Notes under the pieces: model-generated
What the model was told of the DNA's origin: nothing
The model's database searches: none
Seen by the model: only the letters and a program-made list of their open reading frames with translations
In this document: one piece after another, positions 1-4,970 of the stretch
Layout of the letters: every line of letters starts with the position of its first letter
Position numbering within the stretch: the stretch's first letter is position 1
Made by a program: the position numbers and the translations under genes
From: Haloferula sp. BvORR071
Lineage (GTDB): Bacteria > Verrucomicrobiota > Verrucomicrobiia > Verrucomicrobiales > Akkermansiaceae
Reading direction: 5' to 3'
Assembly (NCBI RefSeq): GCF_000739615.1
Contig: NZ_BATP01000023.1
Coordinates: 124,001 to 188,000 of the forward strand
DNA: 64,000 nt

Positions 1-444
1 TCCGACGGGCTCTCCGCAGAAGCCGCGCACCGCCAAGGCCCTCCCCTGCTCCGGGCTCTATTGCCACTGCTTGCCGGATGGCGGCTCGCGCCTCTGATCA
101 TCGCACCCTTCGCCCGCGTCGCGCTGCAAGATGAAATCGGGGAAGCGCTCGGCGCGAGAGCCGCGCTGATCCTGCTTGGCGAGAGACCCGGGCTGGGTTC
201 CGCGGATAGCTTGGGTGCCTACCTGGTTCACTCCCCCCGGGCGGGGAACACCGATGCCGAGCGAAATTGCGTTTCGAACATCCGGCCCGCTGGACTTCCG
301 GCGGAAGCGGCCGCACCACGGATCGCGTGGTTGCTCGGAGAGGCACGGCGGCTAGGCTTCAGCGGGGTGGATTTGAAGGATCACAGCGCCTCCGCCAGCA
401 CCCCCATTCTCGACACGACCAGCCTTGGTGATAGGCTCACATAG
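1..444 (+). CDS. eutC: Ethanolamine ammonia-lyase small subunit, C-terminal part (5' end outside window)
   Basis: This frame is open from the first base and encodes about 147 residues. It shows the EutC C-terminal signature: a '[15 protein letters not shown]' stretch, '[18 protein letters not shown]' and '[16 protein letters not shown]'. EutC pairs with EutB to form the B12-dependent enzyme that converts ethanolamine to acetaldehyde and ammonia. In the family these blocks contact the cobalamin and the large subunit. The start codon and presumably eutB lie upstream of the window. Its TAG stop overlaps the GTG start of the next small gene (TAGTG), so the two may be translationally coupled. No microcompartment gene is visible here. 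The family call is firm; the physiological role is inferred. Confidence 0.93.
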
Positions 445-767
445 TGAGCTTGGGTGGCAAAATCACCGTCGGCCTCGCCTGCATGTGGGCTCTTGGCCAC
501 ATTCTCCTGTGGGCGATGGCCAGCGGCTGGATCCACCTGTCGGAAGGCGTTCTCGCAACTTTAGCGTGTATCCAAATGGCCTTGGCCTTTCCGCTCGGAT
601 TTCTCGGCACCGGACTTGCCTCCATGGATCACGGAATGACCTCCTCCGAAGGGATCCGCTACCTCCTCCTCATGGTGCCGAATCTCTTCCTCCAAGGATA
701 CCTCTTGGCGGGAATCTGGCAGTTCTATCGGCGATTCACAGCACCCCTCCGGCGCGATTTCACGTAA
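444..767 (+). CDS. Small membrane protein of unknown function
   Basis: This 107-residue protein starts at a GTG that overlaps the eutC stop. It has three hydrophobic stretches (about residues 6-28, 35-58 and 72-92) and a basic C-terminus ending 'FYRRFTAPLRRDFT', which suggests three membrane passes with a cytoplasmic tail. No family is recognised. The overlap with eutC suggests co-transcription, but nothing in the protein links it to ethanolamine use. Its last codons contain the first half of a CreB-type recognition sequence, so the downstream promoter region begins inside this gene. Confidence 0.6.
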   Translation: MSLGGKITVGLACMWALGHILLWAMASGWIHLSEGVLATLACIQMALAFPLGFLGTGLASMDHGMTSSEGIRYLLLMVPNLFLQGYLLAGIWQFYRRFTAPLRRDFT

Positions 768-774
768 CCTTCAC
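759..774 (+). promoter_or_regulatory. Perfect cre tag (predicted CreB binding site)
   Basis: The sequence TTCACGTAACCTTCAC is an exact match to the CreB recognition element known from E. coli and its BlrA relatives (TTCAC-N6-TTCAC). It lies 15 bases before the 790 start codon and about 315 bases before creB, so it may drive an autoregulated creBC operon. It is close to the 790 ORF start, so either that transcript is leaderless or nearly so, or transcription starts inside the ORF. Confidence 0.7.
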
Positions 775-789
775 GCTCCCTGCACGCGG

Positions 790-1050
790 ATGGTGTTGAT
801 TCCAAATGTGCCACGTGCCCTTCTCTGGATTCTGATTGCCCCGCTGTGGATTGCTTGCATCGGCGGCTTGGCCTATTGGCATTGGATGGTGGCGCCGGGG
901 CTCGATGCCAGCGAAGGCTGCGGGGTCGCCTTCGGCGGGGCGGCGGTGGGTTGCACGGGTCCCCTCGTGGCGGTGGTTTTCACGACTTTGATTTTTGCCG
1001 CTGACCGGCTACTCAAGCTCCATTCCCGGCCCGGCTTCGTCCCGCTCTAA
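790..1050 (+). CDS. Small hypothetical membrane protein upstream of creB
   Basis: This 86-residue ORF encodes two hydrophobic segments (about residues 9-30 and 48-70) separated by a short loop with two cysteines in a 'GCGVAFGGAAVGCTG' stretch. It ends 40 bases before creB on the same strand and follows a perfect cre tag, so it may be the first gene of the creBC transcript. No family is recognised. The proximity of the cre tag to its ATG leaves some doubt that this start is used; a GTG four residues in is not better placed. Confidence 0.5.
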   Translation: MVLIPNVPRALLWILIAPLWIACIGGLAYWHWMVAPGLDASEGCGVAFGGAAVGCTGPLVAVVFTTLIFAADRLLKLHSRPGFVPL

Positions 1051-1090
1051 CGTCATTCCCCTGTCCACCCTTCTCCTCTACCATCCCGCC

Positions 1091-1801
1091 ATGAACGTCC
1101 TGCTCGTCGAAGACGAACCCGCCATTGCCGATACTCTGGTCTATGCCCTGAAGACCGAGTGCTTTGAAGTCCACCACGCCCTGACCGGCCAGGAAGCCCT
1201 GGATGCCTTCGGCTCCACCCGCTTCGACTTCGCCATCCTCGACATCGGCCTGCCGGACATGACCGGCTTGGACGTGTGCCGCAAGATGCGCGAGACCTCC
1301 AGTGTGCCGATCCTCTTCCTCACCGCCCGCTCGGGAGAAGTGGACCGCATCCTCGGTCTCGAGCTCGGCGGCGATGACTACGTGACGAAGCCCTTCAGCC
1401 CGCGCGAAATCGTGGCCCGCATCCGCGCGATCCTGCGCCGTGCCACGGTGCCCGCCACTGCCGCCGCCACCAATGGCAATGGCAGCTCTGCTCCGGCACC
1501 CGCGGAGGCAGCCGGCCCCCTGCACCACGATCCTTCGGCCATGCGCATCCACTGCCACGGCGCCGAGCTGGACCTCACCGCCCACGAGTACAAGCTGCTG
1601 CTCGTCTTCCTGAAGAATCCGCGCCGCGTGCTGACCCGCGACCAATTGCTCGACCACGCCTGGGCCGATCCCGGTGCCGTCACCGACCGTACCATTGATG
1701 CCCACATCAAGTCGATCCGCGCCAAGCTCCGCGTCGCGAAGCCAGGCGCGGAGGACCACATCCAGACCCGCCGCGGTCTCGGCTACCTCTTCGTGCCCTG
1801 A
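1091..1801 (+). CDS. creB: Response regulator, OmpR/PhoB family, CreB-like
   Basis: The 236-residue protein has an N-terminal receiver domain with the acidic pocket E7/D8, phospho-acceptor D51 in 'ILDIGLPDM' and K100 in 'VTKPFS'. A poorly conserved Ala/Pro-rich linker (about 118-145) follows, then a winged-helix domain containing 'LTAHEYKLLLVFLKNP' and 'DRTIDAHIKSIRAKL'. The ATG at 1091 begins directly with the conserved 'MNVLLVEDE'; upstream in-frame codons read through intergenic sequence and are not used. creC follows on the same strand after about 100 bases. CreB is supported over other OmpR-type regulators by the adjacent CreC-like kinase and by cre tags before the operon and after creC. 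Confidence 0.85.
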   Translation: MNVLLVEDEPAIADTLVYALKTECFEVHHALTGQEALDAFGSTRFDFAILDIGLPDMTGLDVCRKMRETSSVPILFLTARSGEVDRILGLELGGDDYVTKPFSPREIVARIRAILRRATVPATAAATNGNGSSAPAPAEAAGPLHHDPSAMRIHCHGAELDLTAHEYKLLLVFLKNPRRVLTRDQLLDHAWADPGAVTDRTIDAHIKSIRAKLRVAKPGAEDHIQTRRGLGYLFVP

Positions 1802-1903
1802 AGCTTCGAGTGAGAATGCCCGTGAAAAGCCTCAACAGCGCGGAATTCGTCCACTAGCCTCAGGCTGATTGCGGGCAGTTCTCGCCCTTGGAACTTCACG
1901 GAC

Positions 1904-3340
1904 ATGCGTCTCACCCGGGTTACCCTGCTCATCATCGCGCTGATCATCGGCGTCGGCCTCTACCTCTTGCTGCGCCAGCAGCTCCAGGTGGTGGAGCCGC
2001 AGACCTATCAGGCGACGGAGGAGTCGATGGTGGATGCGGCGCAGATCCTCGCCTCCTTCGTCGAGACCGACCTCGAAAAGGGCAGCTTCGACAAGGAGCA
2101 TTTCCAGAAGGCCTTCGAGCGGGCGATCGGCCGCAGGTTCAAGGCAAAGATCCACGGCCACGAGAAAGAACACGTCGGACTCGGCGCCTACCTCACGAAT
2201 GCGCAGGGCAAGGTCCTCTTCGACTCGAACGGCCGCCTGGAAGGCCTGAACCTAGCCGATGCCCGCGACGTGGCTCTCACCTTGCGCGGCGAGTACGGCG
2301 CGCGCAGTAGCCGGACCGACAAGGACAACCCGCTCTCCTCGGTGCTCCATGTCGGCGCGCTGGTGGGACCGCAGGATGCCCCCTTCGGCGTGCTGACCGT
2401 TTACAAGCCGCAGAGCGATGTGCTGCCGATCGTCGATGCCCGCCGCCGCAGTATCTACTGGGGCACCGGCTTGATCGGCGCCGGGATCCTCTTCCTGGTG
2501 ACCGCGGTCTTCATCTGGCAATACCTGCCGGTTGGCCGCCTGACTGAGTACGCCCGCGAGATTGAGCAAGGCAAACGGCCGCCGCTGCCGAAGCTGGGCG
2601 CGGGCAAGGAAGTGAACACCCTCGCTCGCGCGCTCGAATCCATGCGCGAGGCGCTCGAAGGCCGCCGCTATGCCGAGCGCTACGTGCAGACGCTGACTCA
2701 CGAGATGAAGAGCCCGCTGGCCGCCATCCGCGGGGCCGCAGAACTCCTCGGCGAAGAGATGCCGGTAGCCGACCGCCAGCGCTTCCTTGGCAACATCCGT
2801 GCTGAGTCCGGCCGCGCCGAGCGGCTGATGAACCGCTTGCTCGAACTCTCCGCTCTGGAAGGCCGCAGCAGCCTGGATGTGACCGAAGTGGTCGACCTTA
2901 ATCCGATCGTCACCCGCGCCATCGAACAAGGCCAGCCGCCTGCCGAACTTGCCCGGGTCCGCCTGGACGTGGAGATGCCCGGCGATGCGGTGCCAGTGCG
3001 CGGCGAAGCTTTCATCCTGCGCTCGGCGGTGACCAATCTGTTAGAGAATGCCATCGATTTCTCGCCCGCTGGCAGCACCATTGAAGTTGCGTTGCGGCGC
3101 GAGAATGGCACCGCCTTCATCGAGATCGCGGATCGCGGCCCCGGCATTCCGGAGTATGCGACCGACCGGGTCTTCGATCGCTTCTATTCGCTGCGCCATC
3201 ATGCTTCCGGCCGCAAAGGCACCGGCCTCGGCCTCACGCTGGTGAAGGAGACCGCAGAGCTTCACGGCGGTTGGGTGACCTTGGAGCCGCGCGAAGAAGG
3301 CGGCACCCTGGCGCGCCTCGCACTACCGGTCTACACCTGA
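1904..3340 (+). CDS. creC: Sensor histidine kinase, CreC-like
   Basis: This 478-residue kinase starts with a membrane helix (residues 5-24), has a periplasmic sensor region with a 'GLGAYLTNAQGKVLFDSNG' stretch typical of CreC, and a second helix at about 187-207. A HAMP-like linker follows. The dimerisation domain has the phospho-acceptor in 'TLTHEMKSPLAAIRG' (H266), and the ATPase domain shows N box 'NLLENAIDFS', G1 'DRGPGI' and G2 'GTGLGLTLVKE'. It would phosphorylate the CreB-like regulator encoded upstream. In E. coli CreC responds to fermentation state; the signal here is unknown. The gene contains one of the rare TTA codons, in a CTGTTAG context at 3038-3044. Confidence 0.87.
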   Translation: MRLTRVTLLIIALIIGVGLYLLLRQQLQVVEPQTYQATEESMVDAAQILASFVETDLEKGSFDKEHFQKAFERAIGRRFKAKIHGHEKEHVGLGAYLTNAQGKVLFDSNGRLEGLNLADARDVALTLRGEYGARSSRTDKDNPLSSVLHVGALVGPQDAPFGVLTVYKPQSDVLPIVDARRRSIYWGTGLIGAGILFLVTAVFIWQYLPVGRLTEYAREIEQGKRPPLPKLGAGKEVNTLARALESMREALEGRRYAERYVQTLTHEMKSPLAAIRGAAELLGEEMPVADRQRFLGNIRAESGRAERLMNRLLELSALEGRSSLDVTEVVDLNPIVTRAIEQGQPPAELARVRLDVEMPGDAVPVRGEAFILRSAVTNLLENAIDFSPAGSTIEVALRRENGTAFIEIADRGPGIPEYATDRVFDRFYSLRHHASGRKGTGLGLTLVKETAELHGGWVTLEPREEGGTLARLALPVYT

Positions 3341-3342
3341 GC

Positions 3343-3400
3343 TTCATGAAGTTCATGAAGTGAGGACCGCCTTTTCATGGCCGGTTCATCACGGGTTCAC
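3343..3400 (+). promoter_or_regulatory. TTCAY repeat cluster, degenerate cre tags
   Basis: Right after creC there are two direct copies of TTCATGAAG (3343-3351 and 3352-3360). Three TTCAY half-sites follow at exact 11-base steps: TTCAT 3374-3378, TTCAT 3385-3389 and TTCAC 3396-3400. The 6-base spacers match the cre-tag geometry, though only the last half-site is canonical. The cluster ends 11 bases before the start of the next membrane-protein gene, which suggests CreB control of that pair. Confidence 0.55.
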
Positions 3401-3411
3401 TGGGGGCCTCT

Positions 3412-4191
3412 TTGCTCGCGGCAGTGATTCGCCGCCTGCTGCAACCGACTTCCGAGCTGCTCGATGACCCCTCCCCGGGGAACATCGCGCGCACCGCGGG
3501 AATCACTGCCCTGGCCCTCGCCGCATACGGTTTCACCACCGGTTTCTGGCGCTCACCGGTGATGGGCTGCTACGTGGCGCTGAAGATGCCGCTGCTGGTC
3601 GCCTGCACGCTCGGCTGCAATGGAATGCTGAACGGTCTCTTGGGTTTGCTGCTCGGCGGCATCGGCTTCCGCCAGTCCCTGCTCGCACTCCTCAGCGCCT
3701 TCGCCTCCGCAGCCTTGATCCTCGGTTCACTCGCGCCGGTCACCCTGATGCTCGCGTTGAATGCGCCAGCGCCGGATTCACCCGATGCCGGCACCGCGCA
3801 CGCCGGCTATTTGCTCTTTCATGTCTTCTTGATCGCGGTCGCCGGGATCGCGGGAACCCTCACGCTCTACAAGATTCTGCTCCAGCGCTGCAGCTCACCG
3901 GGCATCGCGATCACCACCATGCTGGCGTGGCTCGGTGGGAATGGATTTCTCGGCGCACAGTTCTCCTGGATCCTGCGGCCCTTCTTCGGCACACCGACCA
4001 TTGCGGTCTCCTTCTTGCGCGATGACCCCATGCGCGGGAGCTTTTACGAGGCGGTCTGGCGCTCGCTCAATCGCGCCACTGACGGCAACGCCCTGGCCGC
4101 AGTCTGCGGATTAATCGCAGCCCTCGTACTCATCGCCATTCCCATCATCCTCACCCTGCGTCCCCGAAACCGGATTCCATTACCGCCATGA
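3412..4191 (+). CDS. Polytopic membrane protein, possible CreBC target
   Basis: The 259-residue protein has about six hydrophobic helices (roughly 29-45, 58-80, 85-108, 131-152, 163-180 and 231-250), so it is an integral inner-membrane protein resembling the loose Yip1-like class. The start is uncertain. TTG at 3412 gives the longest product and GTG at 3424 is an alternative; no strong Shine-Dalgarno is seen for either. The 3' end overlaps the next gene by four bases (ATGA), so the two membrane proteins are translationally coupled. The position after creC and behind TTCAY repeats suggests this pair replaces CreD as the local regulon member. No function is claimed. Confidence 0.65.
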   Translation: MLAAVIRRLLQPTSELLDDPSPGNIARTAGITALALAAYGFTTGFWRSPVMGCYVALKMPLLVACTLGCNGMLNGLLGLLLGGIGFRQSLLALLSAFASAALILGSLAPVTLMLALNAPAPDSPDAGTAHAGYLLFHVFLIAVAGIAGTLTLYKILLQRCSSPGIAITTMLAWLGGNGFLGAQFSWILRPFFGTPTIAVSFLRDDPMRGSFYEAVWRSLNRATDGNALAAVCGLIAALVLIAIPIILTLRPRNRIPLPP

Positions 4192-4970
4192 ACAACGATA
4201 CACCGCCCACCCCGCCGCCCTATTCCTTCACCCCTTCGACTCCACCACTACCGCCCGGGCAGTCGCCTGCACCTGTATCGGAAGCACTTCCCGCCCAACT
4301 CGATCTCCGCTCGATCCTCAGTGCCTTGTTGCGCAATCCCGGCGCTCTCATCCAGCGCTTAGCCGATCCAGGCAATGGCGCGATCTACCGCTTCATCGGC
4401 ATCGCCATCGTATCCATGGTGGTCTTCGGCCTGGTGCTCGGCAGCTTCGCCATGCACGAGCAGCTCTGGGCGGCACCGCTGAAGATCACACTCGGACTCC
4501 TCATCGCCGGGTTGATCTGCTTCCCCAGTCTCTACATCTTCTCCTGTCTTGCAGGATCGCGTGCCGAGGCCGGGCAACTCGCGGCCTCACTCGCCGGCAT
4601 GATGGCACTCGCCGGGCTACTGCTGTTAGGTTTCGCGCCGGCGGTCTGGATCTTCACCCAAGCCACGAATGCCTTCGGCTTCATGGGACTGCTCTCGCTG
4701 CTGCCATGGCTCGCCGCGGCAGGCTTCGGCATCCGCTTCCTAAAGACCGCCGTGAACCTCACCGGTGCCACCTCGAAGGGCCCCTTGGTCGTATGGAGCT
4801 GCATCTTCCTGCTGGTCACCCTGCAGATGACCACCTCGCTGCGGCCGATCCTCGGACGCTCGGACAAGCTCCTCACCGACGAGAAGAAGTTCTTCGTCCA
4901 ACACTGGATCGAGGTGGCGGGCGAATCCCTTCCAACGACGCAAGTGCCCACCACAACCACCGCCCGATGA
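4188..4970 (+). CDS. Polytopic membrane protein with Pro-rich N-terminus
   Basis: This 260-residue protein begins with a proline-rich cytoplasmic-looking segment (residues 1-45, 'PPTPPPYSF'), then has about five hydrophobic helices between residues 66 and 215, and ends in a soluble tail of about 40 residues. It overlaps the preceding gene by four bases and the following tiny gene by four bases, so the three form one translational unit. The arrangement of helices resembles Yip1-like proteins, but no diagnostic motif is visible. One TTA codon lies in CTGTTAG at 4623-4629 and another in CGCTTAGCC near 4360. Confidence 0.68.
   Translation: MNNDTPPTPPPYSFTPSTPPLPPGQSPAPVSEALPAQLDLRSILSALLRNPGALIQRLADPGNGAIYRFIGIAIVSMVVFGLVLGSFAMHEQLWAAPLKITLGLLIAGLICFPSLYIFSCLAGSRAEAGQLAASLAGMMALAGLLLLGFAPAVWIFTQATNAFGFMGLLSLLPWLAAAGFGIRFLKTAVNLTGATSKGPLVVWSCIFLLVTLQMTTSLRPILGRSDKLLTDEKKFFVQHWIEVAGESLPTTQVPTTTTAR

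Follow-up and report, generated by a model that had tools for sequence, protein, structure and literature searches.

Does the creBC operon of Haloferula sp. BvORR071 (Verrucomicrobiota) lie among binding sites of its own regulator CreB, and which genes would these sites control? The question arises from a 64,000-nucleotide stretch of contig NZ_BATP01000023.1 (positions 124,001 to 188,000 of the forward strand), of which the whole is here called the window. It carries two ladders, i.e., runs of TTCAY half-sites at 11-base steps, one upstream of creB (759-785) and one between creC and an uncharacterised membrane-protein pair, memA-memB (3374-3400). Judging from the sequences, these ladders are probably binding sites of phosphorylated CreB, which would activate a small open reading frame (ORF) together with creBC in one case and memA-memB in the other. 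CreB dimers, or tandem dimers, of the OmpR/PhoB type would occupy the direct TTCAY repeats, which follow each other head to tail along the coding strand at a spacing of 11 bases, roughly one turn of DNA. The ladder at 759-785 would drive the small ORF and then, by read-on, creBC (autoregulation), and the ladder at 3374-3400 would drive memA-memB, at the position of CreD in Escherichia coli.

Two ladders at the creBC locus

The genes creB (1091..1801) and creC (1904..3340), both on the forward strand, encode an OmpR/PhoB-type response regulator and a sensor histidine kinase. As the original prediction had it, both are what their names say: the proteins exceed the NCBI equivalog cut-offs for CreB (NF008296, 286.4 bits, cut-off 273) and CreC (NF008312, 509.3 bits, cut-off 356). 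Among the creC relatives compared (80 of 91), the named close ones include Luteolibacter marinus (78%) and Haloferula species (64-67%).

The exact TTCAC-N6-TTCAC announced at 759-774 is present (TTCACgtaaccTTCAC). A third repeat, TGCAC, makes it a three-step ladder on the forward strand at 759..785 (repeats at 759, 770 and 781; TTCACgtaaccTTCACgctcccTGCAC), which matches 14 of 15 letters, and its counterpart in the close relative L218 is TTCACggaaccTTCACtctcccTGCAT. After creC, the three announced half-sites are all exact (TTCAT at 3374 and 3385, TTCAC at 3396) and form the predicted CreB site before memA (3374..3400, forward strand, 15 of 15 letters; TTCATggccggTTCATcacgggTTCAC), with an additional TTCAT in register at 3352. 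Allowing at most one mismatch, TTCACN6TTCAC occurs seven times in the window (one exact, six with one mismatch) against 1.99 expected, a number reached in one of 100 shuffles of the window.

The first ladder was said to precede the operon. It does lie upstream of creB, but it ends 305 bases before it with a small ORF intervening. Its first TTCAC is overlapped by the last codons and stop of a forward-strand ORF (444..767) for a small membrane protein of 107 amino acids, which had no match in the NCBIfam and Pfam scans; then follow the small ORF (mechanical start 790) and creB at 1091. Directly upstream, positions 1-444 hold the end of the gene for the ethanolamine ammonia-lyase light chain (EutC). 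Directly before the second ladder, positions 3343-3360 (TTCATGAAGTTCATGAAG) consist of two copies of a 9-base unit and contain the palindrome TTCATGAA, an arrangement which by eye is absent from the other post-creC stretches compared.

Step specificity and association with CreC

We scored ladders as three 5-mers against TTCAY, with a maximum of 15 letters. The window is included in the counts, some loci of different sets come from the same genome, and identical upstream stretches were removed before ladders and promoters were counted upstream of creB and memA. In the 150 bases after creC, a score of at least 14 was found at step 11 in 13 of 79 loci, and at steps 6-10 and 12-18 in none. Upstream of creB (450 bases scored), 24 of 85 loci reach this score at step 11, and no locus does so at any of the remaining steps between 7 and 16. 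Four-step post-creC ladders with one degenerate step occur in L065 (a record named Lentisphaerae), L067 (Desulfoprunum) and L081 (Desulfobacterales). We also fetched 20 creBC loci from other families of the order, of which 17 were usable (L296, L297 and L299 were dropped for want of a usable creB match). A ladder scoring at least 14 was found in eight of the 17, and all 17 overlapping triples of this score among steps 7-16 are at step 11. Six loci (L280, L281, L283, L285, L286 and L288) have the ladder 2.4-2.6 kb upstream of creB and also upstream of a gene with a divergent CreD-like match; in L287 it stands just before creB, and the eighth locus, L294, has an ambiguous gene order. By sequence, the ladder is kept at CreBC loci beyond the near relatives of the host.

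Five of these six loci (L280, L281, L285, L286 and L288) belong to family f4 (genomes G037, G093, G096, G107 and G045), and their distant ladder has four steps. The f4 genomes encode, shortly upstream of creB, a divergent protein that matches only the C-terminal part of CreD.

The gene memA has a ladder also where it is not linked to creBC. In the 200 bases upstream of it, a score of at least 14 was found in 12 of 18 loci at step 11, in one at step 7, and nowhere else among steps 7-16. It is present in 70 of the 190 genomes of the order, and we read 30 loci from these 70: ten reached 14 at step 11, and no other step in the range 7-16 gave that score. A score of at least 13 was found in 20 of the 27 loci from genomes with CreC and in none of the three from genomes without it. 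Four genomes (G061, G114, G143 and G123) encode memA far from creBC, at 300 kb or on another contig; the gene there still has a perfect ladder, followed after 22-24 bases by its GTG. A chance origin of the set as a whole was rejected by the step controls at the post-creC, creB, memA and other-family loci.

The density of ladders also follows the presence of CreC, detected at an expect value (E) of 1e-80 in 102 of the 190 genomes. Three-step ladders with at most one mismatch averaged 1.70 per megabase (Mb) in genomes with CreC and 0.79 in genomes without it (Mann-Whitney p = 3.5e-15), whereas the reversed pattern had 0.17 and 0.22 per Mb. The codon-phase-matched control at step 14 is inflated by tandem repeats in some genomes, so that medians and ranks were used for it; its medians were 0.656 with CreC and 0.645 without (p = 0.31). 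The difference persisted when labels were permuted within genera only (p = 5e-4; six mixed genera, 49 genomes with CreC and 36 without). This correlation, which holds also within genera, is the best sequence evidence that CreB rather than another regulator reads the ladder.

OmpR/PhoB-family proteins read direct repeats at an 11-base pitch, and the ladders might be Pho boxes or sites of another regulator of this family, TTCAY being read by a relative of PhoB. The host genome (7.8 Mb in 66 contigs) offers candidates: 16 of its proteins match the CreB model with E of at most 1e-30, although only the product of creB (1091-1801) passes the cut-off of the model. Genomes without CreC, too, still have some ladders. 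We nevertheless regard this explanation as unlikely. Ladder density tracks CreC within genera, and ladders stand at the promoter of creB itself and after creC in several lineages. The Pho box resembles the ladders in being made of direct repeats at 11-base pitch in the −35 place; its half-site is GTCAY instead of TTCAY, and the ladders are linked to CreBC. In the one pstB-phoU locus inspected (3.6 kb), the best triple of TTCAY or GTCAY had 11 of 15 letters.

The proteins themselves point the same way. We compared the DNA-binding regions of host CreB (DRTIDAHIKSIRAKL), E. coli CreB (DRTVDTHIKTLRAKL) and the PhoB-like host regulator L242 (SRTLDTHMKRLRQKL). The aligned CreBs have in common the motif (D/E)RT(V/I)D(T/A)H(I/V)K(T/S) in this region, whose compared helix we take to contact DNA. 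After HIK the CreBs have T or S, whereas the PhoB-like host regulator and E. coli ArcA have R and the second host regulator has M, the host comparisons being L242 and L244 only.

Start codons and the sign of regulation

The ladders had been placed only 11-15 bases before start codons. This distance did not stand, since it was counted to the first possible starts (ATG 790 and TTG 3412), whereas the conserved starts are GTG 808 and GTG 3424. The accompanying suggestion of either leaderless transcripts or wrongly called starts seems to hold on both counts: the starts were called too early, and a −10-like hexamer lies within the 22-23 bases that separate ladder and GTG. The small ORF (808..1050, forward strand, hydrophobic by eye) thus probably starts 22 bases after its ladder; L218 has a GTG at the same distance, and the ORF of 86 amino acids has a tblastn match there (31%). 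The likely start of memA, 23 bases after the third repeat, is aligned with a GTG in nine relatives (L010, L011, L013, L046, L219, L303, L305, L308 and L312).

A putative −10 element follows each ladder after 10 bases on the forward strand. It is TTGATT at 796..801, with TCCAAT at the same place in L218, and TTTGCT at 3411..3416, where relatives have TTTACT, TTTGAT, TTACCT, TTTTCT and CGTGAT. The 24 creB promoters with strong ladders have, at positions 11-16 beyond the ladder, T(.88) G(.71) R A(.92) A(.83) T(.96), i.e., TGRAAT, which resembles a −10 element and has the position of the hexamer at 796-801.

We measured the distance from ladder to start in promoters with a ladder scoring at least 13, choosing start codons by a purpose-made rule. 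It was 21-24 bases in 23 of 34 creB promoters, 33-35 bases (one repeat further) in eight, and 40-50 in three. For memA it was 22-24 bases in 12 of 22 promoters, 27-30 in eight, and more in two. At creB the hexamer ending 6 bases before the start has T1 in 0.68, A5 in 0.62 and T6 in 0.71 of promoters, and matches 2.76 of 6 letters on average, against 0.71-1.97 at offsets 5, 7, 8 and 9. The memA promoters have a weaker −10 signal (best 2.09, at offset 8). Initiation usually occurs 6-8 bases after the −10 element, which is about the distance from the −10 to the start codon at creB promoters. If it does so here, the mRNA would begin with the start codon or close to it. The arrangement of conserved starts 22-24 bases beyond the ladder and a −10-like hexamer in the gap fits leaderless or nearly leaderless mRNAs. 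With the last repeat some 10 bases before the −10 hexamer, in the −35 place, CreB would recruit RNA polymerase, and transcription would begin with the start codon or no more than a few bases from it. Elsewhere in the genome, sites often lie 40-60 bases from the called start; hence such leaderless spacing does not hold throughout the candidate regulon.

The absence of Shine-Dalgarno sequences was considered as further evidence of leaderless transcription and rejected. A Shine-Dalgarno-like core was found in none of 34 creB and one of 22 memA promoters, but also in only 12 of 233 ordinary genes; its lack at these promoters adds nothing because the genome as a whole shows none. The 12 cores were counted at −14 to −5 of 233 host starts, taken from the window and the fetched loci, and the level elsewhere is similar. 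The same genes have an unusual start context, with much C (0.58) and little T (0.05) at position −1. Akkermansia species are listed among organisms in which Shine-Dalgarno sequences are scarce (PMC10783764).

CreB could also bind the ladders and repress, blocking polymerase at the −35 region. The ladder does occupy that place, and the sign of regulation is not readable from sequence. Yet a polymerase that finds a ladder where its −35 element should be would seem to need an activator, and activated CreBC activates creD in both E. coli and Pseudomonas aeruginosa (PMC4689548). Repression thus appears improbable, slightly more so than reading by another regulator, and activation by CreB is what we infer for both ladders.

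Target genes and the candidate regulon

The genes that directly follow creC are memA (3424..4191) and memB (4188..4970, overlapping the stop of memA), both on the forward strand and both encoding polytopic membrane proteins of no known family. NCBIfam and Pfam scans gave no match for either. Their predicted structures (mean pLDDT, the predicted local distance difference test, 78.7 for memA and 73.5 for memB) had no counterpart in PDB at E 0.001 (best E 2.8 and 0.37, respectively); as no solved fold is matched, we propose no function. The pair is conserved, with memB in 16 of 19 loci with memA (a few loci represent the same genome twice). The expectation that it stands in place of CreD was borne out: a search of the host genome with PF06123 (CreD) at E 0.001 found no match. 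At this threshold 59 of the 190 genomes have one, full length in only four.

The host genome has 116 exact copies of TTCAYN6TTCAY, of which 100 were listed singly, and 19 of the reversed pattern; three-step ladders with at most one mismatch occur 18 times against none. The reversed pattern alone is too weak a control, since it ignores codon phase, and we added other spacings: N3-N5 sum to 218 and N7-N9 to 215. By eye, and scaled from the 100 matches listed per set, the out-of-phase spacings N3, N5, N8 and N9 have roughly 30-50 each. We then read 100 exact two-step sites in host-genome DNA, after removing duplicates and counting overlapping pairs of one ladder singly. With ORFs called by a simple purpose-built codon score, 71 of the 100 are outside ORFs, compared with 11 of 45 sites having steps of 8, 10, 13 or 14 (Fisher p = 2e-7); for single TTCAY in the window the figure is 33 of 302. 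The original prediction called for a genome-wide search, and the outcome that would have spoken against it, a motif no commoner upstream of genes than in controls, was not observed. Composition or codon usage might create such repeats by chance, TTC (Phe) with CA after it being common; we consider this origin very improbable. Spacings in codon phase are indeed frequent (among the 100 matches listed for each set, N3-N5 are mostly N4 and N7-N9 mostly N7 by eye), but step 11 is out of phase and exceeds the other out-of-phase spacings, the sites are mostly intergenic, and other steps give next to nothing at orthologous promoters.

The sites outside ORFs form 67 distinct places, the two of the window included. 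Of 70 with a next gene, 49 point towards it. A hydrophobic N-terminal stretch is encoded by 29 of 42 directly downstream genes and by 103 of 246 other genes (p = 0.0013). Of 30 downstream proteins, 13 have a Pfam match, among others an ammonium transporter, two MoxR-type AAA ATPases, a small kinase, a LacI-type regulator and a flavin adenine dinucleotide (FAD) oxidoreductase; the remaining 17 match nothing. Up to about 65 further intergenic places thus make a candidate regulon, which appears biased to membrane and exported proteins; some of its single sites will be due to chance. The sole candidate target whose conservation was tested, a MoxR gene, has a ladder of at least 13 at step 11 in eight of 29 loci, its own included, and at any other step in at most one; a thirtieth locus was too short to be counted.

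This gene for a MoxR-type AAA ATPase lies at 1570-2583 of L177 (host genome G000, contig C62, about 141873), with a ladder in all five genomes of its genus that were read, its own included. Two adjacent genes at 1500 and 2328 of L136 (G000, contig C37, about 313683 and 314511) each have a similar ladder promoter, which looks like duplication together with the promoter. By eye they have a prepilin-like N-terminus, and the first has no Pfam match.

Several observations weigh against CreB as the activator at these ladders. Many relatives have no strong ladder at the creB and memA places: 61 of 85 creB upstream regions lack one scoring at least 14, in nine of the 17 other-family loci the scanned stretch contains none, one memA gene adjoins creC without a ladder (G106, score 10), and the MoxR target has its ladder in only the eight loci mentioned. 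Genomes without CreC keep their 0.79 ladders per Mb, more than the reversed control and not more than the step-14 control; hence not every ladder is CreB's. Of the 70 intergenic sites in the host genome, 21 do not face the next gene but point the other way. The −10 signal is weak when oriented sites are taken together: its best offset, 21, has a mean of 1.78 of 6, and most others have 1.0-1.6. Finally, related sequences are not independent, so that our counts overstate the evidence.

These points leave CreB the probable reader of the two ladders, and the system can be set beside those already described. The tag TTCACN6TTCAC stands upstream of creD and is needed for the action of CreB/BlrA (PMC4689548, PMC3660660). 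The E. coli CreBC-CreD system and the cre/blr-tag systems (BlrAB of Aeromonas, P. aeruginosa, Stenotrophomonas maltophilia) share with the host CreB and CreC, by family models, and TTCAC-N6-TTCAC, which in the host stands in promoters of the locus. In E. coli TTCACcgtcacTTCAC is found where creC ends, before creD, and the host likewise has a site between the end of creC and a membrane-protein gene. The host differs in that no CreD is detected in its genome, memA-memB taking its place near creBC. Its ladders have three to five repeats instead of two, an additional one lies upstream of creB, and the start follows after 22-24 bases instead of the about 60-65 after the tag in E. coli and S. maltophilia. 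In the literature on CreBC, CreB and the BlrA tag we found no study of the system in Verrucomicrobiota, judging by titles and the beginnings of abstracts.

The idea that the E. coli CreB code operates in a distant phylum with different targets is therefore supported by the step specificity, the intergenic enrichment, the association with CreC and the unlinked memA ladders. A broader account is possible, with the balance tipped slightly against it: the 11-base TTCAY code of CreB would be old, and CreBC loci in Verrucomicrobiota and Gammaproteobacteria as well as in records named Lentisphaerae and Desulfobacterales would have it in common, with an exchange of its targets (CreD, divergent CreD-like proteins, memA-memB). 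The verrucomicrobial promoter would then be regulated and leaderless, its start codon the first codon transcribed, in a genome that hardly uses Shine-Dalgarno sequences. Whatever physiological role CreB may have in this host, a known pair of regulator and site would, by sequence, extend to another phylum, where its targets differ, its ladders are longer and ladder and start are tightly spaced. A conserved, uncharacterised membrane-protein pair is named as a core target, a testable candidate regulon is provided, and the fixed distance from ladder to start makes leaderless transcription in the phylum directly testable at a few promoters.

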